From: Bolinopsis microptera
Lineage: Eukaryota > Ctenophora > Tentaculata > Lobata > Bolinopsidae
Assembly (NCBI RefSeq): GCF_026151205.1
Contig: NC_087080.1
Span: 3,637,096-3,701,095 of the forward strand
Direction of reading: 5' to 3'
Length of the DNA: 64,000 nucleotides
Part shown: positions 108 through 57,351 of the stretch, piece after piece
Layout: the number at the start of each line of letters is the position of its first letter
Numbering within the stretch: the first letter of the stretch is position 1
Notes under the pieces: generated by a model
What the model was told of the DNA's origin: nothing
Databases searched by the model: none
The model's input: the letters and a program-made list of their open reading frames with translations, nothing else
Made by a program: the position numbers and the translations under genes

Positions 108-3100
108 TTATCTGCCTTGTAATCCTTGAGTGTTCACATAGTCATCAAACATGGAGCACACTTCGGCCATGACACGGTAACAGAACGCATACTGATCCAT
201 TGACTGGATCATTCCATTCCTTTGTAACCGCAGCCGTAGGACTATCTGTAAAGGATAACTATTAGCCCATTTCAACACAGTAATTACTTAATTAGTAAAT
301 TGCTGCATAACTGAGTCATAAGTTGCTGTATTGAATACAAATGATTGATAATACAATAGTCATGATGGTGGATGCTGCCATCAGTTCCTTAGAAACGTAA
401 GTTAAACAGGAGTTAGAAAATACCAAGAAATCACTTACAGTGAACAAATCAATCATCTCATCCTGTCGCAGCTGCTCTATGCAGTTGTGTACAGCAATAA
501 AGACTGCAGTTCGACCAATACCTGCACTGCAGTGGACCACTACCGGCCCGTTCTTTTTCTGGTTCTTCATCTGCAGAGGATGAGTTCATGAAATGATTAG
601 CTAAAAGTTGGTTTAGGGGGTGATCCAGATTTATTTGTACACTCGACAGGGATTTGGATTTATGATTGGTTATTGGTGGAAAGTGGTTGGTAAATCGCGA
701 TCACGTGCAAGATTATTAAAAAAATGGAACACTTTCGGACTGATATTTGTTATTATCTTTGAGTTGATGAAGATGCAGATTAAATACAGTGAGGGTGATG
801 ATTACAATTAATAGATGTTGCCGCCCCTTTTTTGATGGTTGTTTGTATAACAAGTACAATATCTTGTAATAACATTGTTTATCGTGCACTTTTGTTTACC
901 AAAGATAACACTGGTGTTCACAATGTGTATTGCGTGTATTGCGTGTATTGCGTGTATCTAAAGCTATGTAAATCTCCAGTCCATTGATAGACGATACACA
1001 CATACAGCATTGTATAATGTATAGTGCGTGAATTATGAGTAACAACTACAGTGCAGTAGTATCAATAGTTCAGATAAAAATATAATAAACGGTATAGAAA
1101 ATAGTCGTCAGCCTCTGAATATCGAGTATTGTAACAATACCCCAGGTTATAAGATAACGGCAGTATCTCAAACAACGATCCAGGTCGTACGAGGCAAAGT
1201 CAACAAATAGTCAGTAAGATCAGTAAAAAAGAGGTAAGGTCTATCTATACCCCAGATTTATGTTTAGCTGATGTCTTGTTGTTGTTATCAAGGTTAAGTC
1301 ATAATACCTGATCTATCATCCTTATAAGGGGTTTCCCGGATGAGGGACTCTCTGAGTTGGTCCAGGAATAGTAGTGGTACTGCTTTATCTGGCGTGTCGT
1401 CTCATCCTGCAGGGAGGAGGCAATGTTTAGTTGGGGGTGGGGGAGGCAAGGTTTAGTTGGGGGTGGGGAGGAGGCATTGTTTAGTTGGGGGTGGGGGAGG
1501 CAAGGTTTAGTTGGGGGTGGGGAGGAGGCAAGGTTTAGTTGGTTGTGGGGGGAGGCAATGTTGAGTTGGGGGTGGGGAGGAGGCAATGTACAGTTGGGGG
1601 TGGGGAGGAGGCAAGGTTTAGTTGGGGGTTGGGAGGAGGCAATGTTTAGTTGGGGGTGGGGAGGATTCAATGTTTAGTTGGGGGTGGGGAGGAGGCAATG
1701 TTTAGTTGGGGTGGGGGGAGGCAATGTTAAGTTGGGGGTGGGGGAGGCAATGTTTAGTTGGGGGTGGGGGAGGCAATGTTTAGTTGGGGGTGGGAGGAGG
1801 CAAGGTTTAGTTGGGGGTGGGGAGGAGGCAATGTTTAGTTGGAGGTGGGGAGGAGGCAATGTTTAGTTGGGGGTGGGGGGGGGGTGGGCAATGTTTAGTT
1901 GGGGGTGGGAGGAGGCAAGGTTTAGTTGGGGGTCGGGAGGAGGCAATGTTTAGTTGGGGGTGGGGAGGATTCAATGTTTAGTTGGGGGTGGGGAGGAGGC
2001 AATGTTTAGTTGGGGGTGGGGGGAGGCAATGTTAAGTTGGGGGTGGGGGAGGCAATGTTTAGTTGGGGGTGGGGGGAGGCAATGTTAAGTTGGGGGTGGG
2101 GGAGGCAATGTTTAGTTGGGGGTGGGGGGAGGCAATGTTAAGTTGGGGGTGGGTGGAGGCAATGTTTAGTTGGGGGTGGGGGAGGCAATGTTAAGTTGCC
2201 GCCTAGTTTATTTTAAATATTTAGTTTCTTTTACTAGTCACTTTTTAGTTACTTAGGCCTAGAATGAATTCGGTTTCAAATCTGAGTTTGAGAAATTAAA
2301 AAATTAAAAAATTGCATTATAGATAGTAATGAAGTTTCTTATCTTTTTCTTATCAGACCACTTACAATTCAATGATTTTAATAGTTTTATTGACATATTT
2401 TAAGTAACTTAAAACAACTTAACATTAGTATCTTCCTAACTTTTAATTTAGCGGCATGTGATAATATGTGGTTAAGCAGAGATAATATTATCTCAACCTA
2501 AAATGAAGACACTAGAACTTGTACGATATCATACTTCTGGCATGCTCACTTTTAATTTTTAAAGTGGTAATTTAATTTTAGTTTAATATTATTCTCAATG
2601 GACAAACCAGGAAACATCCAGTTATATTTTTAGTTATATTACTATCCGTCCATCGATTGTAAGTTGAAATCACAATAACACAGCAAATTATAATGCCGAG
2701 CAAACTATGTATTCAGTGTACAAACCTCTCTGTTCTTGATAGAAATACTGAAGGTTCTGACAGTGTATTCAGCGGTAGGATTAGCTACGTTCAGCAGGTA
2801 GACTGTGATGTTGTCCACGCAGATTGGATCCTCCTTGTCGCGTGGCCAGTACATCGTGCACCTCTCCTGGGACAGGAAGTGGGGTTAACTTTCACTTTCA
2901 CTTTCATTCGGATCACTTTCACTTTCACATAATCTCAGATCCATTTTACTCCCACTTCACTGTTATGTCGTGAATGCCACATTCATAATTCAAGTATGTA
3001 GATGTTATCATATTTCACTAAAGTTAGAAAAGTTTGTAAATCTCGTGTTCAGGGTGCTGGTTTATAAATACTGTCTACTATGATTTTCTGCAATTTTCCA

Positions 3101-4526
3101 GATTGATGATAACCGTTTTTCCAAATTGCTCCTATTTTTCAACATTGATAAAAAAAAGCTACCGGGTAACAAGTGCATTACATCATCATCTTTGAAAAGT
3201 TACCACACATCGAATATTCTGTAATAAGTCGAAAGCCGGCACTTTTGAGTGGCGATATCACTACCCTCGCCTCCATGTGAGGTGGACAAATTCAATAACT
3301 TTCAAAAGTCGAAATCTCGACCTTAACAACAAAGGGGGAATCTCACTGTTTTTAAGAACTTAACATGTCCTCAGGTTACAACAGGTGACCCCGTGCTGAC
3401 CTACCGTAAAGCTGTAAAGCATGATTCAATTACACGACGCTGAGAATACGAAAATTCTGGGCGATAAGATTTATCTAGAGTTGAATGTTTTGGCACCAAG
3501 CGACAACATGGAGGTTACTTCGAGTTACAGCACGGGCAGCGGGGCAGGACTTAGTTACAAACCAATCACACTTCACTATTTGCGCGAGGAATAAGACTTT
3601 TCAGTGATTTTTGGAAATGGAAGTTTCAGTTCCTATCTCATAAAGTATAATGAACATTTCTCCAGAAAACTTTCAAGTTGTAAGTTCTCATTCGGGAACT
3701 AGCATTTGGTTGCTGAAATGTTCTATGATGTAACAGTAAGAAGTGCAACTCACCCTGCCTCTATCAACTAGAGGAGTTAGCATAACGATGGTGGACACTT
3801 CCTTTTCGAATATCATCCTCCAGAAGTCCCCGATAGTATTCTGTTTGGGACCTTGTGTCGCTATAAACGAATCTCGCTCGTGATAGCTCTGTAGATGTAA
3901 ATAACTTAATTAACTTAATAAATAACTTAATTTGATAAATAATTCTTGTGACAGCTCTGCAGATATCACAAATATTCCCTTACGACAATGAACAGTCTCA
4001 CTGCTTCAGTGCTTGAATAAGCGATCATGATAGTATTGACACGTAGTTACAATTTATTAAACTATAATAAGTTGAAATCAATACTTACGTGAACATAGGA
4101 GGCGTTTATGTAGTCACTTCCTGCTTCTCCGGTTGTGACCCGCAGTTTTACTCGGTTAACATCGACTGAAGTTCAGGGAGTTTAACACTAATTGATTAGA
4201 AGGCAGAAATACCTATTGACCACCTCATGATAAGTTCAATTATGAAAAGTTAAATCAGAAATGACTTACCGGAGTTACTTAACCTAGTCACAGAAACTTA
4301 AAACTACTGACATTAAATATAACAAAAATGTCAACAACTCACAAGGTAGTACGTTACTGAATCTGTTCTTGCTATGATTAACCCCGGCAGTGCCAATATT
4401 AGTCTTGAACTCGTTCTTATCGTGGGTGATGTGTATGGTACAGTACTCTTCCAGTCTTTTGAACTGGTCGTCCAGTAGCGTCATGTACTGGTTACCGGAT
4501 TGTGGTGTTGTTAGACGGGCAAGCTC
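108..4526 (-). CDS. PTP domain D2 (membrane-distal phosphatase domain, probably impaired)
   Basis: Seven exons: 4343-4526, 4089-4165, 3754-3888, 2726-2866, 1308-1406, 439-570 and 108-245. Visible PTP motifs in order are [53 protein letters not shown] at the WPD-loop position, the P-loop HCSAGIGRT (about 505-535), and [15 protein letters not shown] near the C-terminus, then TAA. The nucleophilic Cys and the Arg of the P-loop are kept, but the WPD loop reads WTN, so the general-acid Asp is missing; the Q-loop region has QS where QT is usual. Known of the family: D2 domains of tandem receptor PTPs are often weakly active or regulatory. I infer D2 here is a regulatory or substrate-binding pseudo-phosphatase. 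The domain is otherwise complete, with no frame breaks. Confidence 0.9.
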
Positions 4527-7500
4527 CTGAAAATAGTCAGGTTTAAAGTTTTACGGCATTATTTAAAAAGTGAACAGTACAGTATACTGCAATTGAACAC
4601 GTTTCTTAGTTTTACTTTTGATTGTTTTGATGTTCAAATTTGTATTTGCTCTGTGGAACACAATCCTTTAACCAGCACAATATCTCAGGTTAGCTACAGG
4701 AAAATAACCGCTACTAGTCGAGAGTATGCAACCCTTTAAAAATACCATCTCAGGGTCAGATAACAACTTCCTTTACCCCAGTCTCACCGCCTCCTCCTTC
4801 ACATGGAGACCAAATACTTCCCTAAATCACAGGTTTTCTCACAATATGAATATTCCAGCTAGTAACAACTTCCTACTCAATACTAGTAGTACTATGAGTG
4901 TATATTTGACTCAACACGTCCCACAATCTCCTCTGTTGAAGAAGCACAGAAACAACACCCATCTAGTTCTACTCAACCGCATATTTTGAGCGAAAACTGG
5001 AAAATATCAGTTTTCTGAGCCAGTGTATGTAATGTAAAACCGTCCGGAGAAGGGAACATTACATACTTACATAGGTGGAAATGTGATGTGAGTTTTTATC
5101 AAGTGTACTTCTCCACTACTACTCAATGTCAGAATGAGATAGTCCCAGACATTCCACGGGGAAAGTGAGAGACAAAAGATGGGATTATTTGCATTTTTAC
5201 TTCCCTATTCTTATTTTACTGTCCGATTATTTCTGTAATTATGCGAATAATAAGTCGAAAGCCTTTTGAGAGGCACTTTTGAGTGGAAATATCACTATTC
5301 ACTACCCTTGCTTCAATGTGGGGTGGAAAATTCAGTAACTTTCAAAAGTCAAAATCTCAACAACAAGGAGGAAATCTGCACTGTTAAAATCTCCTTATTT
5401 TGTGATAATCTGAACACCACGATCAAAACGCCAAAATAGTCACATCACTGTACAATCTCAACTGATCTCGAATGTGTGTCCACCATTTACGGTGTTTAAC
5501 CGAGCGATATATAATAATACTGGAGTCAAACCACAATTTGTGGCTATTTAAGTAACATTCTCCAACGTGTTACATTCTCCAACAGGATGGTATCAAACGT
5601 AAACACGTCTAAGTATCGCCCCCATATGCATATTATATTATATAACACCGAGCTATTTTCCCTCTCTGGTGTGCTTGGAGGTTAGTCTGTATAATAATAA
5701 TTTATTATGTGAAACTTTACCGAGTTAAATTCGCGGAGAGCGATGAAGGTATCGTCACATATGATCATTTCTCTGACAGCTTGGTACAGGAACTTGTATT
5801 GCACCTGCATCACAAGGATTGTGTCAGTTGTTGAGTTATTAAATTGAGAAATATAATCCAAACCATCATTTTTACCAGCATAACTGTCTTGATCGAATAC
5901 ATGTAACTTAAATAATACGATCCAATGTGGATTGCTACTATACATAATACAATGTACATAATAAAGTGTGTAGTGTGTAATACCTCATCTCCAAAGTTAT
6001 TTTACAATTGATAACCAAAACAGAGCCCAGATCCCAAAACTTAAAAAATAAATGAACAAGAACTCACAGAAGTTTGGACCATGAGTTTTCTGCACCGTCT
6101 GAGCCTACAGACGATACCAAACAGGTCAACTCTCTGATCATCAGATAACATCCTCATTTGAAGGTGGAGAGCCATCAGGGTTCCAGTTCGACCTACACCA
6201 GCACTGCAGTGTACCTGTAATAACCGGGAACATTAAGTTACTGTTCACACAAATATGAAATATAACTTAACTTTACAGTCAATTAAACAATCAAATCAAA
6301 GTTCTGCAGTCGGTAAATAATGAAAAATACAATGAAGTAATCTTTGAAATAATAGAAATAATTAAATAACGCACCACCACAGGACCGTCCACCATCTCAG
6401 AGAAGCACCTCCTACAGAAGTCAATAAGAGAGGTAGTAGGTGGAGCACCGTGATCAGGCCATATCAGATAATGGAAGTGATAAACACATCTCTTTTCAGC
6501 TCCCTGGGTTAGTTACTAGGTTACTTTAGTTCGCAATGTTTTGGAAATTTAGTTCAGTGTTTCAGAGTAAGGTACCGGTGCTATTGAGAGAGTTTCTTAT
6601 CGCTAGTTTGTAGCATCAAACTTGACTTCACGAATAATAGACTATTGACCAACGAACTTGTAACTTACCTTTTCCACAATAAGTGTCCTGATACAGTAAT
6701 CAGGGAAGGTCAGGATGCCTTCAACAGTAATACGCACGTTCCCGTACTGCATGGAGCCCTCATCGCTCCAGTACTGGGCACACTTCTTACGTCCTGGGTA
6801 AATCAGTCACGTGACTTACCGAGTCTTAAATTAGAGACGAAAAAGCAGAAGTTTACTGCTTTTCAGGTTGACATCATGGTACTGATTGTAAAATGATACG
6901 TTTATATCTTGAAACACTCGAATAATACATAAGCATGTGACACTCGTTCCAGAAGTCAAATGTGCTGGATAAAATAACGCTTATACCTTTTTCAACGAGA
7001 TTGGTCACCATAACGATGGAAAGACTTCTGTTTTCCCAAACCATCTGCCAGAAATCTGCCATAGTCTCCTCCTTGGGTCCTTGAGCAGCTATAAACTCCA
7101 CATCATTCGTCATGTTCTAAAATTGGGCAAGTTTCAAGACATTTTGTAGCTTTTGCTCATTAGTAAAAATCATCATTCGAGGTTTATTGTGTAGAATGAG
7201 ATTTGAAACGTCGTATAAAAAAGAAGTTTTGGATCTCAAAATCAGTAAGCTAATTCAGTACTTCAGTAAGGTAACACGTGTTACCACTTGTTTACCACGT
7301 GTTTACCACTTGTTTACCACGTGTTACCACGTGTTACCACGTGTTACCACGTGTTACCACTTGCTTACCACGTGTTACCACGTGTTACCACTTGTTAACC
7401 ACGTGTTTACCACGTGATACCACTTGTTTACCACGTGTTACCACTTGTTCACCACTTGTTCACCACGTGTTACCACGTGTTACCACGTGTTACCACGTGT

Positions 7501-34500: not shown

Positions 34501-37500
34501 ATTATCATTAATTACATAAACAAAATTTGGCGGCCAAATTCCAAAATTTGCCAGGCAAAAAAAAATTTCATGCACAAATTTTGAAAGCTGATTGAGTTGT
34601 TACATTTTTAATGAGATCAATTCCGCGAATATTGATAAAAGCTATAACTTACATAGGATTCAAGTAATTTAGGCTTACCTTTCATATAATGTTAGTCTCA
34701 TTCAAAATATATTGATATTTGACCAATTTATGATTATGGGCCGAAATCTATTAAATTAGGTGAGTATGCCCAAATATGGGAATATTGTTTTTGACACATA
34801 ACTCAGTCATTTTTTGTCTAATCTTGATGAAATTTCATATATGAGTTCAGGAGACCACTAGCTACAAGAGCACCTAAAACCTTGGTTTTGGACATGTTCA
34901 GGGCATTTGGTCTAATTTGGCCTAATTTTGACAAAATATGGGCGTGGCTGCCCCACTGGCACCTTTTGGAGGTTGGAGTCCGAAACCCCCTCAAAAGTTC
35001 GGTCACCGGTCATTGTTTGTTGGTCAACTGCTATCTCGAGATCAAGTTTCACAAAAAGTACCCATTGGCAATATAACAATATAATCTTATGATCAACAAT
35101 TATTAATAAATTAATAATTGAAAACTTAAGTTGTTTTCTCGTTGAAAAAAATCCTAGTTATTAATGAGATAATAATCATCAATGTATTGACTGAAATCTA
35201 CCAATTTTAATAGATTTAAACTTAATTTATATACTAATTTAACAAAGTAATTGCAGCATTTTACCAAAATGAAGAGTTCCGTGATCAATTACTGATCATT
35301 GCCAAGAAATTAAATTGTTCTTCATTAGAAACAGACATACATCTAAGAAACAAATGAGCATACAAAATTTTTGTTCTCCAACTCATCAGTAAATTATCTA
35401 AGATCGAAAAAGAAGATTGCATTATAAATTTAAGGTATCAAGATTTACAGTAAAGTTGTTTTGTCAAATTATCCAAAAAGAAGAACTAAATTTGAGCTTT
35501 TGAGGTATTGAGATCAACAGAGAAGACTTTTTGTCAAGAATTGAGAAGTAGACAGATGCTTCACCCTGGGCTCACCAAGTTCATCTTCATTTTCAGACTC
35601 AGTTTCTGAAATCTGCTCATTTGCAGTTACTTCAGTAGGAATTCCAGAAACAGCAGCAGGAGTCACTTCATTCGAAGCAGTGGGTATATAATCTGATTAG
35701 GACATGGTTTAACGGGAGGATGACGGAGAAACTAACTATTTACCAAGATTAATCCTCCCTCACAAAATGAGGATATATTAACTAGTCTCTTGGTAAATTA
35801 CCTTTTACTTCTCCACTTGACTCTCCGAAATGAGAAAAACAATATTATAATCTTATGATCAACAATTAATAATTGAAAACTTAAGTTGTTATCTCGTTGA
35901 TAACATCCAAGTTATCAATGAGATAGTAACTGTGAATGTATTATTGACTGAAATCTGCCAATTAATATATTTAAAACTTAATTTATATATTAATTTAACA
36001 AAGTAATTGCAGCAGTTTTAACAAAAAAAAGAAGATTTTTGTGATCTTCGCCAAGAAATTAAAATGTTGATCATAGAAGCAAATGAGCATGAAATAATTT
36101 CGTTTCATAACTCATCAGTAAATTATAACTAAGATTGAAAAAGAAGATTATATTATAAATTAGAGGTATAGAGATTTACAGTGAAGTTGTTTTGTCAAAT
36201 GATCCAAAAAGAAGAACTAAATTTGAGGTATTGAGATCAACAGAGAAGACTTTTTGTCAAGAATTGAGATGTAGACAGATGTATCACCCTGGGCTCACCA
36301 AGTCCTTCTTCATTTTCAGACTCAGTTTCTGAAGTCAACTCAGACGAATCTTCACTCGAAGGAATGTCACGTTTTTTGATACTCATAATTATATCTTTTG
36401 TATCAGCTGATTTGAACAAAATTTTACCGAAGAATGACGCACATAATTACTGTTTGACCAAAGATTAATCCTCCTTTACAAAAGGAAAATGTTAGCAGAC
36501 CTACAGATCCTATGATGAGTGTAATTTTGTTTTAACATAAAGTTAAAACAGCAAAGTGTCATTTATTGGGAGTTATAAATACCCACAAAGTCCTAAGAAA
36601 CTTACCGAAAGTCAGGAAGTTGACAACAATGTCTTTGAAAGTAGATGTTGCTGAATCCGAATATTCTACAGATTGCGCAGCACATTTGTATGTCACGGGA
36701 TTTACACCCGCAGCTGCAGCTATAGTTGTAAGAGTGGCAACTTCAATGGTCAGAGTTGATGTCTGAATTTTGGTACCAGAGTCAGCTGATCCCTGTGCGA
36801 TGGTGTACCCTCCACTACCACTTGTTATAGCAACCCCAGCATTATCCTTCCACGACACAGTGACATCTGTAACCACATCTCCGATATCACAAGTCAATGT
36901 CTGAGCCACAGCGGTGGTGGCTTTTTTAGGAGTCTCCGGATCGACGGCTGAAATAATTTGATTCTTTCAAACTCACAAAACATTTGGTAAGTTAAAATAT
37001 CATTACATGTAGTTGTAACTGAAATAGCCTAAATTAAGAAAGATTACTGCTGCAAAATTCGAATAAGACCTCGTTATATGCATTGTGGTTCTAAAAATGT
37101 ATCAAGATTACTCACTGAAAACGTTCGAGTTGACAGCAGTCTCTTCTGATGTTTTTGCATGCTCGTCAGATTGAATTACACAGGTGAAAATAGCATCAAC
37201 CGTGTTTTCACCAGCAGGTACGGTCAGAATTGTAGTTTGACTGTTTGAACCTTTATCGTAACTTCCAATAGCAATCTGATAACCTCCAGTATTGTGAGTT
37301 ATAGCATCACCCGAAGCTTTCTGCCATGTTACCGCGTCCAGCTGCTTACTCAAACCACTTACTACACAAGATATTGTAGCTTCTGTGTTTGTCAGCACTT
37401 CGCTACCCTTAGCTTCTACACCTGAAACAATCAGTCATTTAAAATATTCCCGCAATAAAAAATATCAACAGTATTGTTTGACGGCCAGGTAGCGCAGTTT

Positions 37501-40500
37501 GACGGCCAGGTAGCGCAGTTTTGACGGCCAGGTAGCGCAGTTGGTTAGAACGCCAGCTTTGCAATCGTGAGGTTGCGGGTTCAAATTCCACTGTCTGCCT
37601 GGTCGTGGGGTGAGTGCCGTTGACGTTCAGCTATTTATGGGCAGTTATAAATACCCACCAAGTTCTAAGAAACTTACCGAAAGTAAGGAAGTTGACAACA
37701 ATGTCTTTGAAAGTAGATGTTGCTGAATCTGGATATTCTTTAGATTCCGCAGCACATTGGTATGTCACGGGATTCACACCCGCAGCTGCAGCTACACTTG
37801 TAAGAGTGGTAACATCAATGGTCAGAGTTGATGTCTGAATTTTGGTACCAGAGACAGCTGATCCCTGTGCGATGGTGTACCCTCCACTACCACTTGTTAT
37901 AGCAACCCCAGCATTATCCTTCCACGACACAGTGACATCTGTAGCCACATCTCCGATATCACAAGTCAATGTCTGAGCCACAGCGGTGGTGGCTTTTTTA
38001 GGAGTCTCCGGATCGACGGCTGAAATAATTTGATTCTTTCAAACTCACAAAACATTTGGTATGTTAAAATATCATTACATGTAGTTGTAACTGAAATAGC
38101 CTAAATTAAGAAAGATTACTGCTGCAAAATTCGAATAAGACCTCGTTATATGCATTGTGGTTCTAAAAATGTATCAAGATTACTCACTGAAAACGTTCGA
38201 GTTGACAGCAGTCTCTTCTGATGTTTTTGCATGCTCGTCAGATTGGATTACACAGGTGAAAATAGCATCAACCGTGTTTTCACCAGCAGGTACGGTCAGA
38301 ATTGTAGTTTGACTGTTTGAACCTTTATCGTAACTTCCAATAGCAATCTGATAACCTCCAGTATCGTGAGTTATAGCATCACCCGAAGCTTTCTGCCATG
38401 TTACCGCGTCCAGCTGCTTACTCAAACCACTTACTACACAAGATATTGTAGCTTCTGTGTTTGTCAGCACTTCGCTACCCTTAGCTTCTACACCTGAAAC
38501 AATCAGTCATTTAAAATATTCCCGCAATAAAAAATATCAACAGCATTGTTTTGACGGCCAGGTAGCGCAGTTTGACGGCCAGGTAGCGCAGTTTTGACGG
38601 CCAGGTAGCGCAGTTGGTTAGAACGCCAGCTTTGCAATCGTGAGGTTGCGGGTTCAAATTCCACTGTCTGCCTGGTCGTGGGGTGAGTGCCGTTGACGTT
38701 CAGCTAAGGATCATGAGTGGTCTATGCAGCCCCCCGGTATACTCAGCCGAATACTCGAGAAATCGGGTGTGAGGGTTAAATGAGGAGCTGCACATTGCAG
38801 CAAAGTCTCGGGCGAAGAAAGTATGGTACACACTACCTTAACCGTCACTGGCTAAAAACAAATCCTTCGGCTTCCTGTAATTGGCTGGTTGCACTTGTGT
38901 AATAATGTGGCTGTTGGAATACTCCGAAGTAAAATAAGTGTCTTGATAAAAAAGTACAGGAACTGAATCATTGAACTTTCTAAACTAAATTCACTGGATC
39001 CTATGATGAGTTTAATTTTGTTTTAACAGTAGGATGTAACAAGTTATCTTAGATATAAAGTTAAAACAGCAGAGCATCATTTATGGGCAGTTATAAATAC
39101 CCACCAACTCCTAAGAAATTTACCGAAAGTAAGGAAGTTGACAACAATGTCTTTGAAAGTAGATGTTGCTGAATCTGGATATTCTTTAGATTCCGCAGCA
39201 CATTGGTATGTCACGGGATTCACACCCGCAGCTGCAGCTACACTTGTAAGAGTGGTAACATCAATGGTCAGAGTTGATGTCTGAATTTTGGTACCAGAGA
39301 CAGCTGATCCCTGTGCGATGGTGTACCCTCCACTACCACTTGTTATAGCAGCACCAGAATTATCCTTCCACGACACAGTGACATCTGTAACCACATCTCC
39401 GATTTCACAAGTCAATGTCTGAGCCACAGCGGTGGTGGCTTTTTTAGGAGTCTCCGGATCGACGGCTGAAATAATTTGATTCTTTCAAACTCACAAAACA
39501 ATTTGTATGTTAAAATATCATTACATGTAGTTGTACCTGAAATAGCCTAAATTAAGAAAGATTACTGCTGCAAAATTCGAATAAGACCTCGTTATATGCA
39601 TTGTGGTTCTAAAAATGTATCAAGATTACTCACTGAAAACGTTCGAGTTGACAGCAGTCTCTTCTGGAGACGCTGATGTTTTTGCATGCTCGTCAGATTG
39701 AATTACACAAGTGAAAAGAGCATCAGCCGTGTTTTCAGCACCAGGTACGGTCAGAATTGTAGTTTGAATGTTGGTGCCAGGAACGTAAGTTCCAATGTCA
39801 ATAGCATAGCTGTCAGTACCGTCAGTTATAACACCACCCGAACTAGGTTTATTCCATGTTACCGCCTCCAGCTGCTTACTCAAACCACTTACTACACAAG
39901 ATATTGTAGCTTGTGTGTTTGCCAGCACTTCGCTACCCTTAGCTTCTACACCTGAAACAATCAGTCATTTAGAATAAGCCCGCAATAAAAAATATAAACA
40001 GTATTGTACAGAAACTGAATCATTGAACTTTCTCAACTAAATTCACTGGATCCTATGATGAGTTTAATTTTGTTTCAACAGTAGGATGTAAGTTCAAGTT
40101 ATCTTAGATATAAAGTTAAAACAGCAGAGCATCATTTATGGGCAGTTATAAATACCCACCAAGTTCTAAGAAACTTACCGAAAGTAAGGAAGTCGACAAC
40201 AATGTCTTTGAAAGTAGATGTTGCTGAATCTGGATATTCTTTAGATTCCGCAGCACATTGGTATGTCACGGGATTCACACCCGCAGCTGCAGCTACACTT
40301 GTAAGAGTGGTAACATCAATGGTCAGAGTTGATGTCTGAATTTTGGTACCAGAGACAGCTGTTCCCTGTGCGATGGTGTACCCTCCACTACCACTTGTTA
40401 TAGCAGCCCCAGAATTATCCTTCCACGACACAGTGACATCTGTAACCACATCTCCGATTTCACAAGTCAATGTCTGAGCCACAGCGGTGGTGGCTTTTTT

Positions 40501-43493
40501 AGGAGTATCTGGACCGACGGCTGAAATAATTTGATTCTTTCAAACTTACAAAACGTTAAAAAAAGCAAGGAATGCGGATGGTTATGCCAGGATATGTAAA
40601 TTACTTTTACAAAGACGGCAAATTGCCAGCTCACACCAGAGAAGCATTCTGCAAATTTGAGATTTTGACAATACACGGCATCATCGTAAAGAATGCGCTT
40701 ACATTAATGCACCGCATGAAGCACTTTCCTAACACAGTACCTGTATCAATTAGAAATTTGTTTCCAGATAACATACCCACGCATGGTTCAAATCATGAGA
40801 ACAGTAGCGAATGGCTAGATACGTACAATAACCGATGTTTCAAAGCATCCATCTTTTTTAAAGGACCTTTACTAGCTCTAACAGACACCAACAAGAACAT
40901 CACGTCCCTACCTAGCTTATTTTCAATAAATATTTACAAATCGAACGCAAAACGCGTGCTTCTTGAGCAACAGTCAACACTAGCTAACTCAGAGGACAGC
41001 TGGCCAGCATTTCTGCTACACAACGTACCTGGTTTGAGGAAGTCCAATAGATGAGGGATGATTGAGTAATACAGCGACCAATAATCGCTAAATCATGACA
41101 TCATATCATAACATAACATAACATAGGACGACAGCAAACACACAATAAACGAGCAGTAATAAACAACGTTCGCTTAATGGACTGACATATTTCAGCATAT
41201 TTTTCACTGCCAAAGCGCTGATAACAGCAAGCCTTACCCCACTCCGCGCGGCTTTTTAATGCACAAAATCTTAAAGATAATTCTCGCGATAAAATTTTCA
41301 TCGTCACGCTTGAAAATTTCTAGAAATTAGAATAGCCGTATATTATAACAAACTATAGCAAGCAGAATTAAAAGATAAAAGGTTCTGGGACTTAAGTGGT
41401 ACAAATAAAATGAAAGGCATGCTGATGCTAATCATGCTTACGTACTGTAATGTGTCGAGAGTTTTTTTTTATTTAATTTTTACTATTTGACAAAATAATT
41501 GATCTTTTTAGTGTGAGTGTGATTTCAACTTTGAGTTTGAAAATATTTTGAAACGACTTTCGATATTATTGATTATTATATTATATTTAATAAACTGGCT
41601 CAAAGCCCTTAGAGGTGGCTCTATACGGGTCTTTACAACAACAACAAAACATTTGGTATGTTAAAATATTATTACATGTAGTTGTAACTAAAATAGCCTA
41701 AATTAAGAAAGATTACTGCTGCAAAATTAGAATAAGACAGCTAGTTTATTTTTGAAAAATGTTTAAATTTGTATTAGTTTTCTCTGAATAGTACGGAATA
41801 GTAATCACTCACTGAAGGTATTCAAGGTTACGGACGTTGAAACTTCTGTCGCATCATCTCGGGCTGCAGGTGTGATCAGACAGTTGTAAGTTGAATCAGC
41901 GGTGTTCTGTGCACTAGCAACAGTCAGAGTGGTAGTTTGAGAATCTCCAACAAGTGAACCTTCGTTAGAGGTATAACCGGTCTCACCAGTCGTTACGTCC
42001 GTACCATCAGATTTCTGCCATTTTACAGTCTGCAATGCTGCAGTTAAACCGGTCACTTTGCAAGATATCTCTACTGCGTCCTTTCCTCTGAGTACTTCTT
42101 TGTTCCCAGCGGTGACCACTGAAAATAACATGTTGTTATTAAAGGAAGTTGCCTCATCACAGCGTGCCAACAGCTCAGTGTCTAAGAGCGGGAATGCTTT
42201 ACCATTTATCATTGCAATTGTTTTCAGATAATTTTATAGTTTTCTTGATAACAGTAAATTATATTTATCTGATACATGTAGATTGTAGTTGTATCAATGA
42301 ATTAATAAATTGAAATTAAAATAATGACCATAGAAAAAAGAATCACAAAACAAGTTTATATCATCACTTAACAGGACATGCAGGCATTGTTTTTTAGATA
42401 AGAGATCAACAATATGATTAGTGATTATTCATCGACCGAAATAATTGTGTTGTTATTGAATATTGATTTGTACTACTTTTTGGAGCGTGCCTTTTGCAGT
42501 GTTCTCCTAATATTTTAGCAATTGAAATAATGTGACTCACCGATGGGAGTAACTACAACGCTCTTTTCGTATACTGGGGATCCAGGGTAATATCTTGACG
42601 TCACTGAGCATTTGTATGTTGTAGCAGAGCTGAGCGTCGACAAGATAGTTGTCTTTATAGTTAGTATTGGTGTCTGTGCTCCATTTAAAAATGTAGCTGT
42701 CCCATCATCGACAATATAATTAGAAGTGTCATCAGTGGGAACATCATCACCGTTATGATCTATCCACTTAACTTCGGCTCTATTTTCAAGCCCGGCTATG
42801 TCACATGATATCGTCTGTTCTACACCAGTTGTAATACTTCTATCGTGTGGAGTTATAGCTGAAATTGAAATTTTGTTATTTATAAATTTTAAATCATTGT
42901 TTGTTGTTATACATATTATGACAATTTAATACGTGATATTACCAAGGTGGTAAAATATGTGAATCTCTATTGTAGCACTGAAACAGTGGTGTAGAATTGT
43001 CGAATCTAGACTTTTAGAGTTGAAGCAGAACTGTCACAGTAATGTTTTAGTTCCGAATCAGTCCTTTTGTTTTGACTTCTGTCGAGAATTTGGTTTAAAC
43101 GAGAAGGACGACTTTTGATACATCAATTAAAGCTGAGATAGCAAGACTTACTGTAAAATCTAAGTTCAGGATATTCCTCCTTGGTTGTAGCGCCAGTGCT
43201 ATCAGCAGGATCAGTAACTACACAAGTAAACTGCATGTCATCCCTTGTAGTATCAGAACCTGCCACCTTCAAGGTGGTTGTTTGTGTTCCATCTGTTCCA
43301 TCTCCACTAATGTACGAAGCTGCTCCCAAATCTGGTGTGTAGGTGTTGTCATCGGTCAAGATTGTACTATCCAATTTCCACACGACGGTGGTCACCTCTG
43401 CAGTCAAACTACTGATTTCACATTTTACAGTGAATGTAGCAGCTGCGCTTTCTAGAACTTCTCTACTGTGAGCTGATAAATTTATCGCTGAAC
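108..43493 (-). CDS. Giant receptor-type protein tyrosine phosphatase with expanded Ig ectodomain (multi-exon, 5' incomplete)
   Basis: About 70 exons on the minus strand share compatible GT-AG boundaries and phases and read through as one protein of roughly 4,300 residues ending at the TAA at 108-110. Order: Ig-like domains (three divergent, ten A/B pairs, seven multi-exon), three CCP-like modules, FN3, a membrane-proximal module with a basic cleavage site, one TM helix, PTP D1 and PTP D2. Known family role: receptor PTPs dephosphorylate phosphotyrosine at the plasma membrane and read adhesive or ligand cues through the ectodomain. The arrangement resembles LAR-type receptors (Ig, FN3, furin-type site, two PTP domains), but the number of Ig domains and the CCP-like modules are unusual. 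The start codon and signal peptide are not firmly placed. One Ig exon has a 1-base frameshift (see 23941-24113). All intervening DNA is intronic. No transcript evidence was available; the exon chain is my manual inference. Confidence 0.85.
246..438 (-). other. Short intron between the last two D2 exons
   Basis: GTAAGTG donor and TTTACAG acceptor. Nothing else seen. The 107 bases beyond the stop codon (1-107) are 3' untranslated or intergenic; no canonical AATAAA polyadenylation signal on the minus strand is seen in them. Confidence 0.5.
1417..2195. repeat. G-rich minisatellite, unit about 27-31 bp
   Basis: Roughly 25-28 tandem units of the form GGCAATGTTTAGTTGGGGGT plus GGGGAGGA on the plus strand, inside the D2 intron and ending within a few bases of the acceptor of exon 1308-1406. 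On the sense (minus) strand it is C-rich, each unit holds an AACTAAAC branch-site-like stretch, and the array contains no AG dinucleotide. Long open frames in it are artefacts of the repeat. Confidence 0.95.
3225..3362. repeat. Dispersed repeat, copy 1
   Basis: Shares AATAAGTCGAAAGCC, GGCACTTTTGAGTGG, ATATCACTA and CAATAACTTTCAAAAGTC-like blocks in the same order as 5252-5392. Both copies lie in D2-region introns, same orientation. Family not recognised. Confidence 0.7.
5252..5392. repeat. Dispersed repeat, copy 2
   Basis: Second copy of the 3225-3362 repeat, with small indels. No terminal repeats or coding potential seen. The rest of the intron 4527-5720 holds nothing I recognise. Confidence 0.7.
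5721..8208 (-). CDS. PTP domain D1 (membrane-proximal, catalytically complete)
   Basis: Seven exons: 8079-8208, 7634-7707, 6987-7116, 6669-6793, 6375-6503, 6068-6214 and 5721-5804, preceded by the helical segment encoded at 9025-9106. Motifs in order: [54 protein letters not shown], the WPD loop IWPDHGAPP (in 6375-6503), the P-loop [12 protein letters not shown] (start of 6068-6214), and [16 protein letters not shown] with the Q-loop Gln. All catalytic residues (WPD Asp, P-loop Cys and Arg, Q-loop Gln) are present, so D1 should be the active domain. Oddity: the KNRY phosphotyrosine-recognition Tyr is Phe (NRF) in both D1 and D2. Exon 7634-7707 ends against a CACGTG minisatellite. Confidence 0.92.
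7267..7628. repeat. CACGTG minisatellite
   Basis: Tandem 10-12-bp units TTACCACGTG/TTACCACTTG/TTTACCACGTG. About 25 copies of the palindromic E-box hexamer CACGTG in 360 bp. It begins five bases past the donor of D1 exon 7634-7707. On the sense strand each unit offers GTGGTAAC, a weak donor-like motif. Open frames here are repeat artefacts. Confidence 0.95.
8209..9024 (-). other. Intron, nothing recognised
   Basis: AT-rich intron between the D1 lead-in exon and the first D1 core exon. Contains only a short CAGATTGT triplet repeat near 8917-8940. Confidence 0.5.
9025..10596 (-). CDS. Cytoplasmic juxtamembrane segment and D1 lead-in
   Basis: Three short exons link the TM helix to D1: 10531-10596 ([20 protein letters not shown]), 9777-9833 ([18 protein letters not shown]) and 9025-9106 ([20 protein letters not shown]). 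The last has the PIHVADFL pattern typical of the helix that opens receptor PTP D1 domains. Phases close exactly (66 = 1+63+2 nt; 57 = 1+54+2; 82 = 1+81). The acceptor of 10531-10596 is chosen by phase: the stronger-looking ACAG acceptor inside it would create an in-frame stop after the TM exon. That acceptor has a poor pyrimidine tract, so this one boundary is less certain. Confidence 0.75.
9834..10530 (-). other. Intron, nothing recognised
   Basis: Intron between two juxtamembrane exons. Contains a short GTTAATTAGTCTCTA repeat around 10060-10105 and no coding signal. Confidence 0.5.
10597..11090 (-). other. Intron with possible unclassified element
   Basis: Contains a GC-richer block (about 10600-10980) with CATGGGTGCCGCC at 10722 and its near reverse complement GGCGGCACCCATG at 10952, which could be part of a decayed inverted-repeat element. 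Ends are not defined. Confidence 0.3.
11091..11167 (-). CDS. Transmembrane helix exon
   Basis: A single 77-nt exon encodes the hydrophobic run [20 protein letters not shown] followed by LLLYKR, about 24 non-polar residues with a basic stop-transfer end. It follows directly on the ectodomain exon 11392-11454 and precedes the acidic and polar cytoplasmic linker. It fixes the membrane topology: everything encoded at higher coordinates is extracellular and both PTP domains are cytoplasmic. Confidence 0.9.
11392..12477 (-). CDS. Membrane-proximal extracellular module with furin-type cleavage site
   Basis: Exons 12296-12477 (3' half), 11880-12031, 11633-11760 and 11392-11454. The second exon reads [14 protein letters not shown] and then [14 protein letters not shown], which contains the proprotein-convertase motif RRKR followed by Ser. 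Known of LAR-type receptor PTPs: a membrane-proximal module beginning with a YxIVVV-like strand is cleaved at a basic site, and the two subunits stay associated. The position here, about 90 residues before the TM helix, matches that arrangement. A final Cys-containing segment ([17 protein letters not shown]) leads into the TM exon. Phases are all compatible. Confidence 0.8.
12296..13378 (-). CDS. Fibronectin type III domain
   Basis: Two exons, 13206-13378 and 12296-12477, joined in phase 0. The first encodes [20 protein letters not shown] with the early FN3 Trp; the second encodes [20 protein letters not shown], the standard FN3 'L-x-x-G-T-x-Y' signature in strands E-F. The domain lies between the CCP-like modules and the membrane-proximal cleavage module, where LAR-type receptors also carry FN3 repeats. 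Only one clear FN3 is visible, far fewer than in vertebrate LAR. Confidence 0.8.
13602..14187 (-). CDS. CCP/sushi-like module 3
   Basis: Exons 14091-14187 and 13602-13698. Four cysteines are spaced as in a sushi domain: [23 protein letters not shown] and LNECYA. The conserved Trp before the last Cys of classical CCP domains is absent, so the assignment rests on Cys spacing, size (about 65 residues) and repetition of the module three times. Confidence 0.6.
13754..13868. repeat. 22-bp tandem repeat, five copies
   Basis: Five perfect head-to-tail copies of CTTTATTTTGTTATTGAAAC plus GA in the intron between two CCP3 exons. Confidence 0.95.
14418..14816 (-). CDS. CCP/sushi-like module 2
   Basis: Exons 14667-14816 and 14418-14502 encode [37 protein letters not shown] and FGGVCKLG. 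It has the four-Cys plan of its neighbours and again no Trp before Cys4. Splice phases (1 in, 2 out) match the modules on both sides. Confidence 0.6.
14999..15419 (-). CDS. CCP/sushi-like module 1
   Basis: Exons 15317-15419 and 14999-15072 encode [31 protein letters not shown] and IDIVSCE. Its four cysteines are consistent with two CCP-type disulfides; the canonical Trp is missing. It follows directly on the last Ig-like module. Confidence 0.6.
15627..16472 (-). CDS. Ig-like module, three exons, lacking the B-strand cysteine
   Basis: Exons 16373-16472 ([20 protein letters not shown]), 15881-15997 ([15 protein letters not shown]) and 15627-15700 ([20 protein letters not shown]). The Trp of strand C and the F-strand Cys (EYSCKV across the 15881/15700 junction) are visible. 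The B-strand position, where Cys is expected, reads ANFDIDV. It is therefore an Ig-like fold without the canonical disulfide, or an I-set relative that has lost one Cys. Confidence 0.65.
16599..17851 (-). CDS. Ig-like module, three exons
   Basis: Exons 17738-17851 ([12 protein letters not shown] ... [10 protein letters not shown] ... NWQS), 16818-16933 ([13 protein letters not shown] ... [10 protein letters not shown]) and 16599-16677 ([14 protein letters not shown] ... IKDVF). Canonical Cys-Trp-Cys order is present. Phases 1-1-0-1 close without a break. Confidence 0.75.
18119..18573 (-). CDS. Ig-like module, two exons
   Basis: Exons 18462-18573 ([16 protein letters not shown] ... AYSW) and 18119-18273 ([16 protein letters not shown] ... 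[12 protein letters not shown]). Cys, Trp and Cys are in the expected Ig order, with the intron falling inside strand C right at the Trp codon. Confidence 0.75.
18683..19556 (-). CDS. Ig-like module, three exons
   Basis: Exons 19460-19556 ([17 protein letters not shown]), 19002-19086 ([18 protein letters not shown]) and 18683-18794 ([14 protein letters not shown]). Canonical Cys-Trp-Cys order, with the first intron again splitting the Trp codon, as in the neighbouring module. A small hAT-like MITE sits in the first intron. Confidence 0.75.
19296..19425. mobile_element. hAT-like MITE, 130 bp
   Basis: Terminal inverted repeats CAGTGATCCGAG ... CTCGGATCACTG with a GC-rich core. The flanking octamers ATCTGCTA and ATTTGTTA match at six of eight positions, consistent with a decayed 8-bp target duplication. 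No coding capacity. It sits in the intron between exons 19460-19556 and 19002-19086. Confidence 0.7.
19557..21747 (-). other. 2.2-kb intron
   Basis: Largest intron in the split-exon Ig region. It holds the 35-bp tandem repeat at 20636-20772 and an unclassified GC-richer block at about 20770-21055; no coding exon is recognised. Confidence 0.5.
20636..20772. repeat. 35-bp tandem repeat, four copies
   Basis: Four units with CTTAGTTAGTTCTCAAATCT in common that alternate between ACATAACTTAG and ACATGATCTTAG forms, so the true higher-order unit is a dimer of about 70 bp. Confidence 0.9.
21748..22496 (-). CDS. Ig-like module without cysteines, three exons
   Basis: Exons 22374-22496 ([20 protein letters not shown] ... 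YWSK), 22119-22186 ([20 protein letters not shown]) and 21748-21856 ([16 protein letters not shown]). The strand-C Trp and the Y-x-V pattern of strand F are visible but neither conserved Cys is present (LARILVTG and YKVTVSVTV). It could also be read as an FN3-like fold. Phases fit the neighbours on both sides. Confidence 0.6.
22790..22878. repeat. ACACATCTAC simple tandem repeat
   Basis: Imperfect tandem repeat of CACACATCTA-type decamers in an intron. No further structure. Confidence 0.85.
23014..23834 (+). mobile_element. Decayed hAT transposon fragment with target duplication
   Basis: Ends TAGAGGCGTGAGC and GCTCACGGCTCTA are near-perfect inverted repeats, and both sides carry the octamer AGTTGAAT (23006-23013, 23835-23842), an 8-bp duplication as expected for hAT elements. 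Subterminal regions are packed with palindromic GGCTAGCCGGCTTAGCC-like motifs. Inside is only the C-terminal part of a transposase, so it is an internally deleted copy. Confidence 0.8.
23179..23525 (+). pseudogene. hAT transposase C-terminal fragment (frameshifted)
   Basis: One frame gives [15 protein letters not shown], then a one-base shift near 23365 continues as [20 protein letters not shown] and [15 protein letters not shown]. This is the hAT C-terminal dimerisation pattern (E-R-x-[FW]-S-x-x-G ... R). The N-terminal and catalytic parts are missing. Non-functional. Confidence 0.75.
23941..24392 (-). CDS. Ig-like module, two exons, with a 1-base frameshift
   Basis: Exons 24279-24392 ([20 protein letters not shown] ... 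VKWATD) and 23941-24113 ([20 protein letters not shown], then in another frame [20 protein letters not shown]). The frame changes inside a run of seven A on the sense strand (7 T at about 24052-24058). One more A would restore the frame: 114+173 nt is one short of a multiple of three, while every other Ig module in the gene is balanced. Possible causes are an assembly error in the homopolymer, a null allele or a decayed exon. Confidence 0.7.
24514..25633 (+). pseudogene. Non-LTR retrotransposon reverse transcriptase fragment
   Basis: Plus-strand frame 24514-25194 reads [26 protein letters not shown] and FADDLATI (RT motifs A, B and C with the catalytic DD). A second frame from about 25165 to 25633 continues with [12 protein letters not shown] and [11 protein letters not shown], typical of the post-RT region. 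The two are separated by a frameshift near 25165-25195, and the 5' part is missing. It lies antisense in the intron between Ig exons 24279-24392 and 25923-26067. Confidence 0.85.
25826..25866. repeat. Short TACAAGTAAG tandem repeat
   Basis: Four copies of GTACAAGTAA just beyond the RT fragment; possibly its 3' tail microsatellite. Confidence 0.7.
25923..27247 (-). CDS. Ig-like module, two exons
   Basis: Exons 27084-27247 ([20 protein letters not shown] ... KIVWVVDG) and 25923-26067 ([20 protein letters not shown] ... [11 protein letters not shown]). Canonical Cys-Trp-Cys order, joined in phase 0. It is the first split-exon Ig after the single-exon A/B array. Confidence 0.75.
26068..27083 (-). 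other. 1-kb intron, nothing recognised
   Basis: AT-rich intron between the two halves of a split Ig module. No repeat, element or exon identified. Confidence 0.5.
27607..27924 (-). CDS. Ig exon B10
   Basis: Single-exon Ig-like domain, phase 1-1, 318 nt. Reads [50 protein letters not shown]. Canonical Cys-Trp-Cys. Last type B copy of the array; a short decayed duplicate of its 3' end lies just downstream at about 27545-27575. Confidence 0.85.
28149..28487 (-). CDS. Ig exon A10
   Basis: Single-exon type A Ig-like domain, phase 1-1, 339 nt. Opens [15 protein letters not shown], then [32 protein letters not shown] and ends FLTFG at the donor. Confidence 0.85.
28688..28996 (-). CDS. Ig exon B9
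   Basis: Type B Ig exon, phase 1-1, 309 nt. Almost identical in protein to B8: they differ by GLTKQ against GLSKQ. Carries the short C-terminal form [18 protein letters not shown]. Confidence 0.85.
29221..29556 (-). CDS. Ig exon A9
   Basis: Type A Ig exon, phase 1-1, 336 nt, the shortest A copy. Carries the variant [18 protein letters not shown] and [19 protein letters not shown]. Confidence 0.85.
29731..30039 (-). CDS. Ig exon B8
   Basis: Type B Ig exon, phase 1-1, 309 nt, with [19 protein letters not shown] and [16 protein letters not shown]. Near-identical to B9. Confidence 0.85.
30265..30609 (-). CDS. Ig exon A8
   Basis: Type A Ig exon, phase 1-1, 345 nt, the longest A copy. The 3' end diverges ([14 protein letters not shown]) and its downstream intron differs from the other units, resembling instead the intron that follows B4. 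Confidence 0.85.
30778..31089 (-). CDS. Ig exon B7
   Basis: Type B Ig exon, phase 1-1, 312 nt. Unique cassette [20 protein letters not shown] and [10 protein letters not shown], with the C-terminal form [13 protein letters not shown]. Confidence 0.85.
31314..31652 (-). CDS. Ig exon A7
   Basis: Type A Ig exon, phase 1-1, 339 nt. Shares the cassette [20 protein letters not shown] with A5 and A6 but has [14 protein letters not shown] in strand C. Confidence 0.85.
31821..32129 (-). CDS. Ig exon B6
   Basis: Type B Ig exon, phase 1-1, 309 nt. Cassette [20 protein letters not shown] and [10 protein letters not shown]; opens [11 protein letters not shown], a variant shared with B4. Confidence 0.85.
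32362..32700 (-). CDS. Ig exon A6
   Basis: Type A Ig exon, phase 1-1, 339 nt. Over the whole Ig core its protein is identical to A5, pointing to a very recent duplication or conversion. Confidence 0.85.
32871..33185 (-). CDS. Ig exon B5
   Basis: Type B Ig exon, phase 1-1, 315 nt. Cassette [20 protein letters not shown] with [20 protein letters not shown], combined with the long C-terminal form [16 protein letters not shown]. Confidence 0.85.
33413..33751 (-). CDS. Ig exon A5
   Basis: Type A Ig exon, phase 1-1, 339 nt, [18 protein letters not shown] core; protein-identical to A6 over the Ig core. Confidence 0.85.
33922..34239 (-). CDS. Ig exon B4
   Basis: Type B Ig exon, phase 1-1, 318 nt. 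Mosaic of the B6-like N-terminal half ([20 protein letters not shown]) and the B5-like C-terminal tail ([16 protein letters not shown]). Separated from A4 by a 2.4-kb intron holding the candidate linker exons. Confidence 0.85.
34280..35085. other. Intron insert, unclassified
   Basis: About 0.8 kb absent from the equivalent intron of other Ig units. Ends are not clear. No recognised transposon proteins; short open frames on either strand are not convincing. Confidence 0.4.
35576..35692 (-). CDS. Candidate acidic linker exon L1
   Basis: 117 nt, phase 1-1, bounded by an ATCAG acceptor and a G/GTGAGC donor. Encodes [16 protein letters not shown] and [12 protein letters not shown]: Ser, Thr and Glu rich, no cysteines. 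It fits the reading frame between Ig exons A4 and B4. A related exon (L2) lies in a second copy of the same repeat. Could be a constitutive or alternative spacer; no transcript support is available. Confidence 0.5.
36299..36406 (-). CDS. Candidate acidic linker exon L2
   Basis: 108 nt, phase 1-1, same donor context as L1. Encodes [20 protein letters not shown] and [14 protein letters not shown]. The 3' half is shared with L1 (SETESENE) while the 5' half has diverged. Both exons keep length a multiple of three and phase 1-1, which argues for coding function. Confidence 0.5.
36606..36947 (-). CDS. Ig exon A4
   Basis: Type A Ig exon, phase 1-1, 342 nt. Carries [20 protein letters not shown] and [20 protein letters not shown], joining features of A1-A3 and of A5-A7. 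Confidence 0.85.
37116..37421 (-). CDS. Ig exon B3
   Basis: Type B Ig exon, phase 1-1, 306 nt. Identical in protein to B2 over the Ig core except one residue (THNTGG against THDTGG). Confidence 0.85.
37477..37632 (+). mobile_element. tRNA-derived SINE, truncated copy
   Basis: Three tandem copies of the 5' 21-22 bp (GACGGCCAGGTAGCGCAG) precede a tRNA-like head with A box TAGCGCAGTTGG and B-box-like GGTTCAAATTCC. The body stops after GTTGACGTTCAGCT and jumps straight into the Ig unit's intron, so the SINE tail and about 0.2 kb of intron were deleted here. Confidence 0.8.
37678..38019 (-). CDS. Ig exon A3
   Basis: Type A Ig exon, phase 1-1, 342 nt. [10 protein letters not shown] form, near-identical to A2 and A1. 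A truncated SINE lies in the intron just downstream (37477-37632). Confidence 0.85.
38188..38493 (-). CDS. Ig exon B2
   Basis: Type B Ig exon, phase 1-1, 306 nt, [20 protein letters not shown] cassette with [18 protein letters not shown]. Confidence 0.85.
38549..38953 (+). mobile_element. tRNA-derived SINE, full-length copy
   Basis: Same triplicated 5' end and tRNA-like head as 37477-37632, followed by a roughly 250-bp body (ATCATGAGTGGTCTATGCAG ... GGCTGTTGGAATACTCCGAA) and a short A-rich end. It sits at the same intron position as the truncated copy, one Ig unit away. Confidence 0.85.
39124..39465 (-). CDS. Ig exon A2
   Basis: Type A Ig exon, phase 1-1, 342 nt, [20 protein letters not shown] core, shared with A1. 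A full-length SINE copy lies in the downstream intron. Confidence 0.85.
39634..39951 (-). CDS. Ig exon B1
   Basis: Type B Ig exon, phase 1-1, 318 nt. Carries the [20 protein letters not shown] cassette otherwise seen in B8-B10 at the far end of the array, and a C-terminal form ([14 protein letters not shown]) joining both tail types. Confidence 0.85.
40179..40520 (-). CDS. Ig exon A1
   Basis: Type A Ig exon, phase 1-1, 342 nt; first recent copy in transcription order. Opens [15 protein letters not shown]. The intron on its 5' side is broken by a truncated LINE. Confidence 0.85.
40555..41643 (+). mobile_element. 5'-truncated non-LTR retrotransposon (LINE) insertion
   Basis: Interrupts the homogenised intron: the heptamer ACAAAAC flanks both ends (40548-40554, 41644-41650) as a target duplication, and the ancestral intron sequence reads through it in other units. 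The plus-strand 3' end reads GAGGTGGCTCTATACGGGTC then a short ACAACAAC tail. Only the C-terminal end of the polymerase ORF remains. Confidence 0.85.
40572..41054 (+). pseudogene. C-terminal fragment of a LINE polymerase ORF
   Basis: A 160-codon open frame: [20 protein letters not shown] ... [19 protein letters not shown] ... [16 protein letters not shown]. This matches the style of the region after the RT domain in LINE ORF2 proteins; no RT catalytic motif is included. Recognition is by general resemblance, so the clade is not assigned. Confidence 0.6.
41813..42118 (-). CDS. Ig exon 3 (divergent B-type ancestor)
   Basis: Single-exon Ig-like domain, phase 1-1, 306 nt: [54 protein letters not shown] and ending TLNTFS. 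It aligns along its length with type B but has many substitutions, and its flanking introns are not homogenised with the array. Confidence 0.85.
42541..42858 (-). CDS. Ig exon 2 (divergent A-type ancestor)
   Basis: Single-exon Ig-like domain, phase 1-1, 318 nt: [55 protein letters not shown]. It shares type A's YKC-x7-YP-S pattern. Together with exon 3 it forms a plausible ancestral A-B pair. Confidence 0.85.
43152..43493 (-). CDS. Ig exon 1 (first recognised exon of the gene)
   Basis: Single-exon Ig-like domain, phase 1-1, 342 nt: [58 protein letters not shown]. Canonical Cys-Trp-Cys. It starts in phase 1, so at least one further 5' coding exon (signal peptide) must exist. Confidence 0.8.
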
Positions 43494-47784: not shown

Positions 47785-47790
47785 TGGTAA
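47785..47790. repeat. Target-site duplication TGGTAA, left copy
   Basis: The hexamer TGGTAA abuts the left end of the foldback element; the same hexamer follows its right end at 57346-57351. Confidence 0.75.
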
Positions 47791-51352: not shown

Positions 51353-51360
51353 AGAGACCA

Positions 51361-53510
<2,150 letters not shown>

Positions 53511-53546
53511 GTTGTTTGTTTGAGTAACATAATAATTTTCAGGAAT

Positions 53547-57345: not shown

Positions 57346-57351
57346 TGGTAA
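57346..57351. repeat. Target-site duplication TGGTAA, right copy
   Basis: Matches 47785-47790 and lies directly outside the foldback's right terminus. Confidence 0.75.

Follow-up and report, generated by a model that had tools for sequence, protein, structure and literature searches.

A ctenophore gene for a receptor-type tyrosine phosphatase with a predicted ectodomain of thirty immunoglobulin-like domains

Does a long chain of immunoglobulin (Ig)-like exons belong to the same gene as the tyrosine phosphatase domains which lie downstream of it, and, if so, how might so large a receptor work? The question is raised by a 64,000-nucleotide stretch of the genome of the ctenophore Bolinopsis microptera (contig NC_087080.1, positions 3,637,096 to 3,701,095), referred to here as the window. 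Vertebrate LAR-type receptors have three Ig domains; an initial annotation of the window proposed about thirty, on a single receptor-type protein tyrosine phosphatase (RPTP). We consider it likely that the window holds one ctenophore gene for a giant RPTP, with an adjustable Ig array in an ectodomain that would be cut and a first phosphatase domain (D1) that would be controlled by contact.

Structure of the gene

The exons of the gene are revealed by stop-to-stop reading frames. They were joined by a chaining script using general splice-site weights, together with a codon-usage model trained on exons of the gene that were chosen by hand. Free of anchors, the script linked 56 exons between 43493 and a stop at 110-108, and the resulting translation contains a single internal stop (that run left intron-split codons unchecked). 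The addition of anchors, and then of homology to Mnemiopsis, filled the path further over three chaining runs in all. The final checked list comprises 69 minus-strand exons, which stay in phase between 43493 and the stop at 110-108 and encode 4242 residues. AG precedes all of these exons, GT follows all except the last, and the sole stop is the terminal one, bearing out the proposal that the chain closes in phase between 43493 and 108. Intron phases are 1 throughout the first 23 domains and mixed downstream. A tblastn comparison with P0121, a hypothetical protein from Mnemiopsis leidyi, gave 41 collinear pieces across the gene outside the Ig array, in a chain which leaves out 41000-27550 of the window and pieces of less than 22 bits. 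The features are as follows.

43980-44031, minus strand: candidate exon 1, with a probable signal peptide (MKEWKTKLLLLFVLSWS) resembling the Mnemiopsis start (MRDWSLKCLLLIYFFSASEA)
41813-43493, minus strand: Ig1-3, phase 1-1, one exon each (43493-43152, 42858-42541, 42118-41813), matched by tree
27607-40520, minus strand: Ig4-23, ten alternating A-B pairs with one exon per domain and introns all of phase 1, from copy comparison
34240-36605, minus strand: long intron of 2366 bp between A4 and B4, holding two acidic ORF pieces and lying outside the final model
15627-27247, minus strand: Ig24-30, each across two or three exons, 55% identical to Mnemiopsis over 636 columns
24052-24058, minus strand: A7 run in Ig25 (second exon), the site of a one-base frame slip relative to the orthologue
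13602-15419, minus strand: three four-cysteine (CCP-like) modules with 12 Cys, 51.5% identical to Mnemiopsis over 198 columns
12296-13378, minus strand: FN3-like module, which in a local profile comparison matches the FN3 of an RPTP-S over a short stretch
11392-12031, minus strand: membrane-proximal region; near 11955-11938 it carries KRRKRS, a basic motif of furin type that is identical in Mnemiopsis
11091-11167, minus strand: transmembrane (TM) helix exon, aligned in Mnemiopsis
5721-10623, minus strand: juxtamembrane segment and phosphatase domain D1 (Y_phosphatase), D1 being 86.8% identical to Mnemiopsis over 273 columns
108-4526, minus strand: phosphatase domain D2 and stop codon, 92.3% identical to Mnemiopsis over 300 columns

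Two places in this model are awkward. The natural extent of the second exon of Ig25, 24113-23941, begins at 24113 and matches Mnemiopsis, and the chain closes across Ig25 only by way of a weak internal acceptor at 24015; either a homopolymer error or a lesion may account for the slip at the A7 run. At the other end, the candidate exon 1 has a consensus donor (GTAAGT) of phase 2, and the Ig1 exon at 43493 needs phase 1. No canonical in-phase join to exon 1 that spares the whole of Ig1 was found among acceptors from about 200 bases before Ig1 to about 50 bases into it. The usable in-phase join costs Ig1 about nine residues, and the alternative is a poor GC donor. The slip and the phase mismatch could each be a one-base assembly error.

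Some micro-exons offered by the chaining runs were rejected. Acidic ones at 36406-36299 and 35692-35576, present in two runs, were dropped because they lie in pieces of a repeated element and are without a counterpart in P0121. Those at 25010-24892 and 24795-24729, from the anchored chain, were dropped as well; they overlie a reverse-transcriptase fragment on the opposite strand.

The window also contains a number of elements and frames besides the exons. An acidic ORF piece (SETESENE...) occurs in two copies in the long array intron, at 36240-36446 and 35517-35696, the first of which has no Pfam match. The reverse-transcriptase fragment (24514-25191, plus strand) lies within an intron of the phosphatase gene, and a second open frame beside it, reaching 25630 on the plus strand, has no Pfam match. 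Minisatellite-like repeated proline-rich frames occupy 1302-2190 (minus strand) in an intron of the D2 region. A LINE-type element on the minus strand spans 45145-58059, with an endonuclease at 57307-58059 and a reverse transcriptase at 45145-47820. It appears to be interrupted at 47790-57346 by a foldback-like insertion of about 9.6 kb, in which two arms flank a GAGA-rich core and show 97-100% complementarity to each other in several long stretches. Finally, a 240-codon open frame at 59709-60428 (minus strand) has no Pfam match at E up to 0.01.

When the domains are read by eye, the Ig-like count is 3 + 20 + 7 = 30, in agreement with the initial annotation. Both Ig cysteines are present in 28 of the 30; Ig26 has neither and Ig30 has one. 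The Pfam Ig_3 model alone scores fewer, with 12 stretches in the first 23 domains (E up to 5) and three in the last seven (E up to 1). Membership of the Ig superfamily is nonetheless clear for both parts, with Ig_3 scores of 155.8 bits for the first 23 domains and 54.5 bits for the last seven. AlphaFold models of a single A and a single B domain were poor, with pLDDT values of 53 and 42 respectively.

The four-cysteine modules are harder to name. Pfam Sushi reaches 12.9 bits on their Mnemiopsis copy against a cut-off of 20.7, and no Sushi match was obtained at E up to 1 from a version of the window model in which one exon of module 2 was still missing. Aligned by hhalign with eight Sushi modules of the sponge RPTP P0007, they gave a probability of 9% (E 0.0035) over 17 columns around C-G-Y. 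Thus the modules earlier described as CCP-like are three conserved four-cysteine units of which Pfam and profile comparison leave the fold unconfirmed, and their assignment to CCP is weak. A similar picture is seen for FN3. Pfam fn3 has zero matches in the window or in the Mnemiopsis protein, and there is a weak window match to the FN3-like family PF16656 (E 0.0027, under the cut-off). Against LAR-type profiles, the membrane-proximal region yielded only a 19-column FN3 stretch, in a comparison which is weak because the automatic TM finder misplaced the helix in at least 3 of 13 rows. The LAR arrangement, in which several fn3 domains come after the Ig domains, is therefore not seen, a single FN3-like stretch being recognised by eye. 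The HMM search suggested alongside the initial annotation accordingly gave a divided result, with strong matches in the predicted protein for Ig and Y_phosphatase, fn3 absent, and Sushi below its cut-off on the Mnemiopsis copy.

The phosphatase part is far better defined. Pfam finds two Y_phosphatase stretches (E 2.3e-140), placed in tandem downstream of a TM helix as expected of a receptor-type phosphatase. Read by eye in the translation, D1 carries KNRF, the WPD loop as WPDHG, and the CX5R signature, and from these motifs it should be catalytically active. D2 retains the signature motif, with WTN in place of WPD and the aspartate lost, and is probably inactive, as the D2 domains of RPTPs commonly are. 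The best PDB sequence matches of this part are PTPRS and LAR, followed by PTPRA. A C-terminal query of 1215 residues retrieved 2007 proteins at E 0.001 among 7985 scored candidates. In a phosphatase tree of 18 selected rows, which exclude the PTPRM, PTPRC and PTPRG types, the ctenophore pair sits on a long branch without placement.

An orthologue in Mnemiopsis leidyi

P0121 (ACHWQZ_G016668) is 3005 aa long and has the same parts in the same order as the window gene, phosphatase included. It was one of only two proteins found by an ectodomain-only search of 7991 scored candidates (lengths of about 1240-3940 aa), the other being P0122, under the same M. leidyi gene tag; the query was region 1-1630 of a shortened 2251-residue join, so that the phosphatase contributed no words. 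All three protein searches cover lengths up to about 3940 aa. Both Mnemiopsis proteins share with the window gene the order Ig, four-cysteine, FN3-like, KRRKRS, TM, D1 and D2, together with the loss of WPD from D2.

From Ig24 to its penultimate residue (1746 aa), the window protein aligns with P0121 at 61% over 1848 columns. The phosphatase domains are the most conserved (87-92%), compared with 38-64% for Ig1-3 and 44-55% for the membrane-proximal, four-cysteine and Ig24-30 regions. Identity is 75% over the TM helix and juxtamembrane segment, and 44% over the FN3-like and membrane-proximal region. In the domain tree, Ig1, Ig2 and Ig3 each pair one to one with their Mnemiopsis counterparts (supports 99/92, 98/85 and 98/91). 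Differences lie mainly in the ectodomain, which is strongly diverged. P0121 has 18 Ig-like domains by the same reading, eight of them in the array (14 Ig_3 stretches by Pfam), as against 30 in the window gene; its array has four B and four A-type domains rather than ten pairs, and it retains a divergent A0 domain which the window gene lacks.

These comparisons lend strong support to the assignment of the Ig array, TM helix and tandem phosphatase domains to one gene, since two separate genes are argued against by the annotation of the whole layout as one protein in Mnemiopsis. The single gene of the initial annotation, with its thirty or so Ig domains, TM helix and tandem phosphatases, is thus upheld by the related-species comparison which had been suggested as its check. 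The Mnemiopsis models are themselves annotation, and repeats may confuse transcript assembly.

P0122 differs from P0121 by 211 residues (one A-B pair), by one residue and by a 27-aa juxtamembrane piece. From B1 onwards, P0122 has five array domains, four of which are identical to one in P0121. The remaining one, of A type, may derive from another exon or another allele, because it is one residue away from the closest P0121 copy. The P0121 and P0122 clusters stand for 16 and three sequences, respectively. Serial inclusion of several A-B pairs is therefore shown at the level of annotation, and skipping of pairs is suggested only.

Related Ig domains occur more widely in ctenophores. A query with the N-terminal 759 residues of P0121 found six more proteins among 7994 scored candidates, all from Mnemiopsis or B. 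microptera. Ig domains of the A, B and N types recur in these proteins, P0123-P0128, none of which has a phosphatase domain listed; P0125 additionally lists PF08742 and PF00093, which we take to be C8 and VWC. The A, B and N types look like a ctenophore family of Ig domains spread across several genes.

The A-B array

The array is strictly ordered as A-B ten times over, with two cysteines and one tryptophan in 20 of 20 copies. Nucleotide identity among the exons is 0.881-0.997 for A copies and 0.840-0.993 for B copies. The introns are also alike: mean identity is 0.89 among nine A-to-B introns, not counting that of 2366 bp, and 0.94 among the nine B-to-A introns. Indels in the array exons are all multiples of three, and intron lengths are free to vary. 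Not one stop is present in the 20 exons where 6.5 would be expected without constraint, given 214 inferred substitutions (P 0.0016); the array exons are thus under constraint to stay open. As chaining can pick open exons only, the window was also searched for omitted copies, and apart from short matches to the Ig3 exon no additional or decayed A or B copy was found elsewhere in it. Beyond staying open, the amino-acid sequence of the array changes as fast as synonymous sites do, since the pN/pS intervals include 1. Positive selection on the array is not established by these ratios, which are 1.17 for A (bootstrap 0.69-2.22) and 1.10 for B (0.74-1.72).

Turnover of the array within lineages is clearly indicated for A and probable for B, because copies form groups of their own. 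Mnemiopsis A1-A3 form one cluster (99/98), apart from the window A copies, and another cluster unites the B copies of the window and of Bolinopsis P0125 (100/98); the tree does not bring the Mnemiopsis B copies together as a single group. Array exons of P0125 closely resemble the window's own and are placed in their midst by the tree. The divergent A0 domain that is absent from the window is present in P0125 as well as in Mnemiopsis. Sites which vary among B copies in the window overlap with those varying in Mnemiopsis at 12 of 18 (Fisher P 0.011). For A copies no window-Mnemiopsis overlap beyond chance was detected (4 of 8, P 0.28).

Alternative readings, known systems and a proposed working

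A number of known receptors share parts of this layout. The LAR-type (type IIa) receptors PTPRF, PTPRS and PTPRD and the hydrozoan proteins P0030 and P0079 likewise have N-terminal Ig domains, a TM helix, D1 and D2, and some of these relatives share a basic cleavage motif upstream of the helix; in the Clytia RPTPs P0079 and P0081, RRRR lies at most 210 residues upstream of it. LAR-type receptors, however, have several clear fn3 domains, whereas the window gene has 30 Ig domains and no Pfam fn3. Among five other RPTPs scanned, the maximum was seven Ig_3 stretches (Hydractinia P0030), so the Ig number stands out as had been claimed, and 18-30 Ig domains on an RPTP exceeds anything met in this analysis. 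The accompanying suggestion that RPTPs with CCP modules were unknown does not hold. P0007, an RPTP F-like protein of the sponge Corticium candelabrum, combines Sushi, Ig and fn3 domains with two phosphatase domains, and such a receptor is therefore not new. P0007 differs in having seven clear Pfam Sushi stretches, one Ig and five fn3 stretches, without an Ig array. Titles and abstract openings of the papers found on ctenophore or Mnemiopsis tyrosine phosphatases contained no report of a gene of this kind, and passages of PMC11999971 mention neither ctenophores nor tyrosine phosphatases.

Tandem arrays of Ig exons are also found in Dscam and in chelicerate sDscam, which to our knowledge carry no phosphatase. 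The cassettes of Dscam and sDscam serve as alternatives, whereas Mnemiopsis has several pairs in series. In sDscam, the cassettes for Ig7 or Ig7-8 comprise two or four exons (PMC4835542).

It is very unlikely that the array and the TM-phosphatase part are separate genes fused by exon-chaining. Splice sites are weak in places of this intron-rich stretch, there is one frame slip, and P0123-P0128 show that the same Ig types can occur without a listed phosphatase domain; against this, Mnemiopsis has the array and the phosphatase in one protein with its parts in equal order. We also doubt strongly that the ten-pair length is in part an artefact of assembly, with a repeat that was inflated or mis-joined and fewer real pairs. 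Copies up to 99.7% identical over exons and the homopolymer slip in one exon are what such an artefact might leave, but no two copies of the same type are identical (0.997 and 0.993 at the highest) and the A-to-B introns are of unequal length, from 224 to 2366 bp.

A possible, if rather doubtful, reading is that the A-B exons are alternative cassettes in the style of Dscam or sDscam, so that transcripts take subsets, cells differ and no protein has 30 Ig domains. Because all array introns are of phase 1, any number of array exons could be skipped in frame, and P0121 and P0122, under a shared gene tag and represented by 16 and three sequences, are one A-B pair apart; the A domain of P0122 that is one residue off may come from a further exon. 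That single residue could be allelic, however, and as P0121 carries four B and four A-type domains one after another, inclusion is serial and not mutually exclusive. A bolder form of the idea, which we consider unlikely, would make the gene a Dscam-like generator of diversity on a phosphatase: A-B pairs would differ in number and combination between cells or individuals, through skipping of phase-1 cassettes and rapid turnover of the array, bind like to like, and alter phosphatase output on matched contact. A shared recognition surface would fit the overlap with Mnemiopsis of the variable sites in B copies, an overlap which A copies do not have. The gene may have a role in recognition, perhaps of self versus non-self, as the initial annotation proposed. 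Individuals of Mnemiopsis are reported to fuse without rejection, which would speak against a role in allorecognition.

The preferred reading remains that of one giant receptor with a serially included array. LAR-type receptors are cleaved into two chains, and ligands of their ectodomains control D1. By analogy, the ectodomain of the ctenophore protein would reach or bind a neighbouring cell or matrix through its Ig array, and cleavage at KRRKRS would leave two chains joined non-covalently. Contact might then lead to clustering or release, altering the access of D1 to phosphotyrosine substrates. The A-B array would act as an adjustable stalk or recognition surface built from repeats, in which unequal exchange would change the number of pairs between lineages, and perhaps skipping of phase-1 cassettes would do so too.

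Ctenophores diverged close to the root of the animal tree. An RPTP with a labile array of 18-30 Ig domains, its layout kept in two ctenophores, is a candidate receptor for contact or recognition in these animals. It also offers a way to test whether tandem Ig exons came to generate isoform diversity elsewhere than in the Dscam of arthropods.
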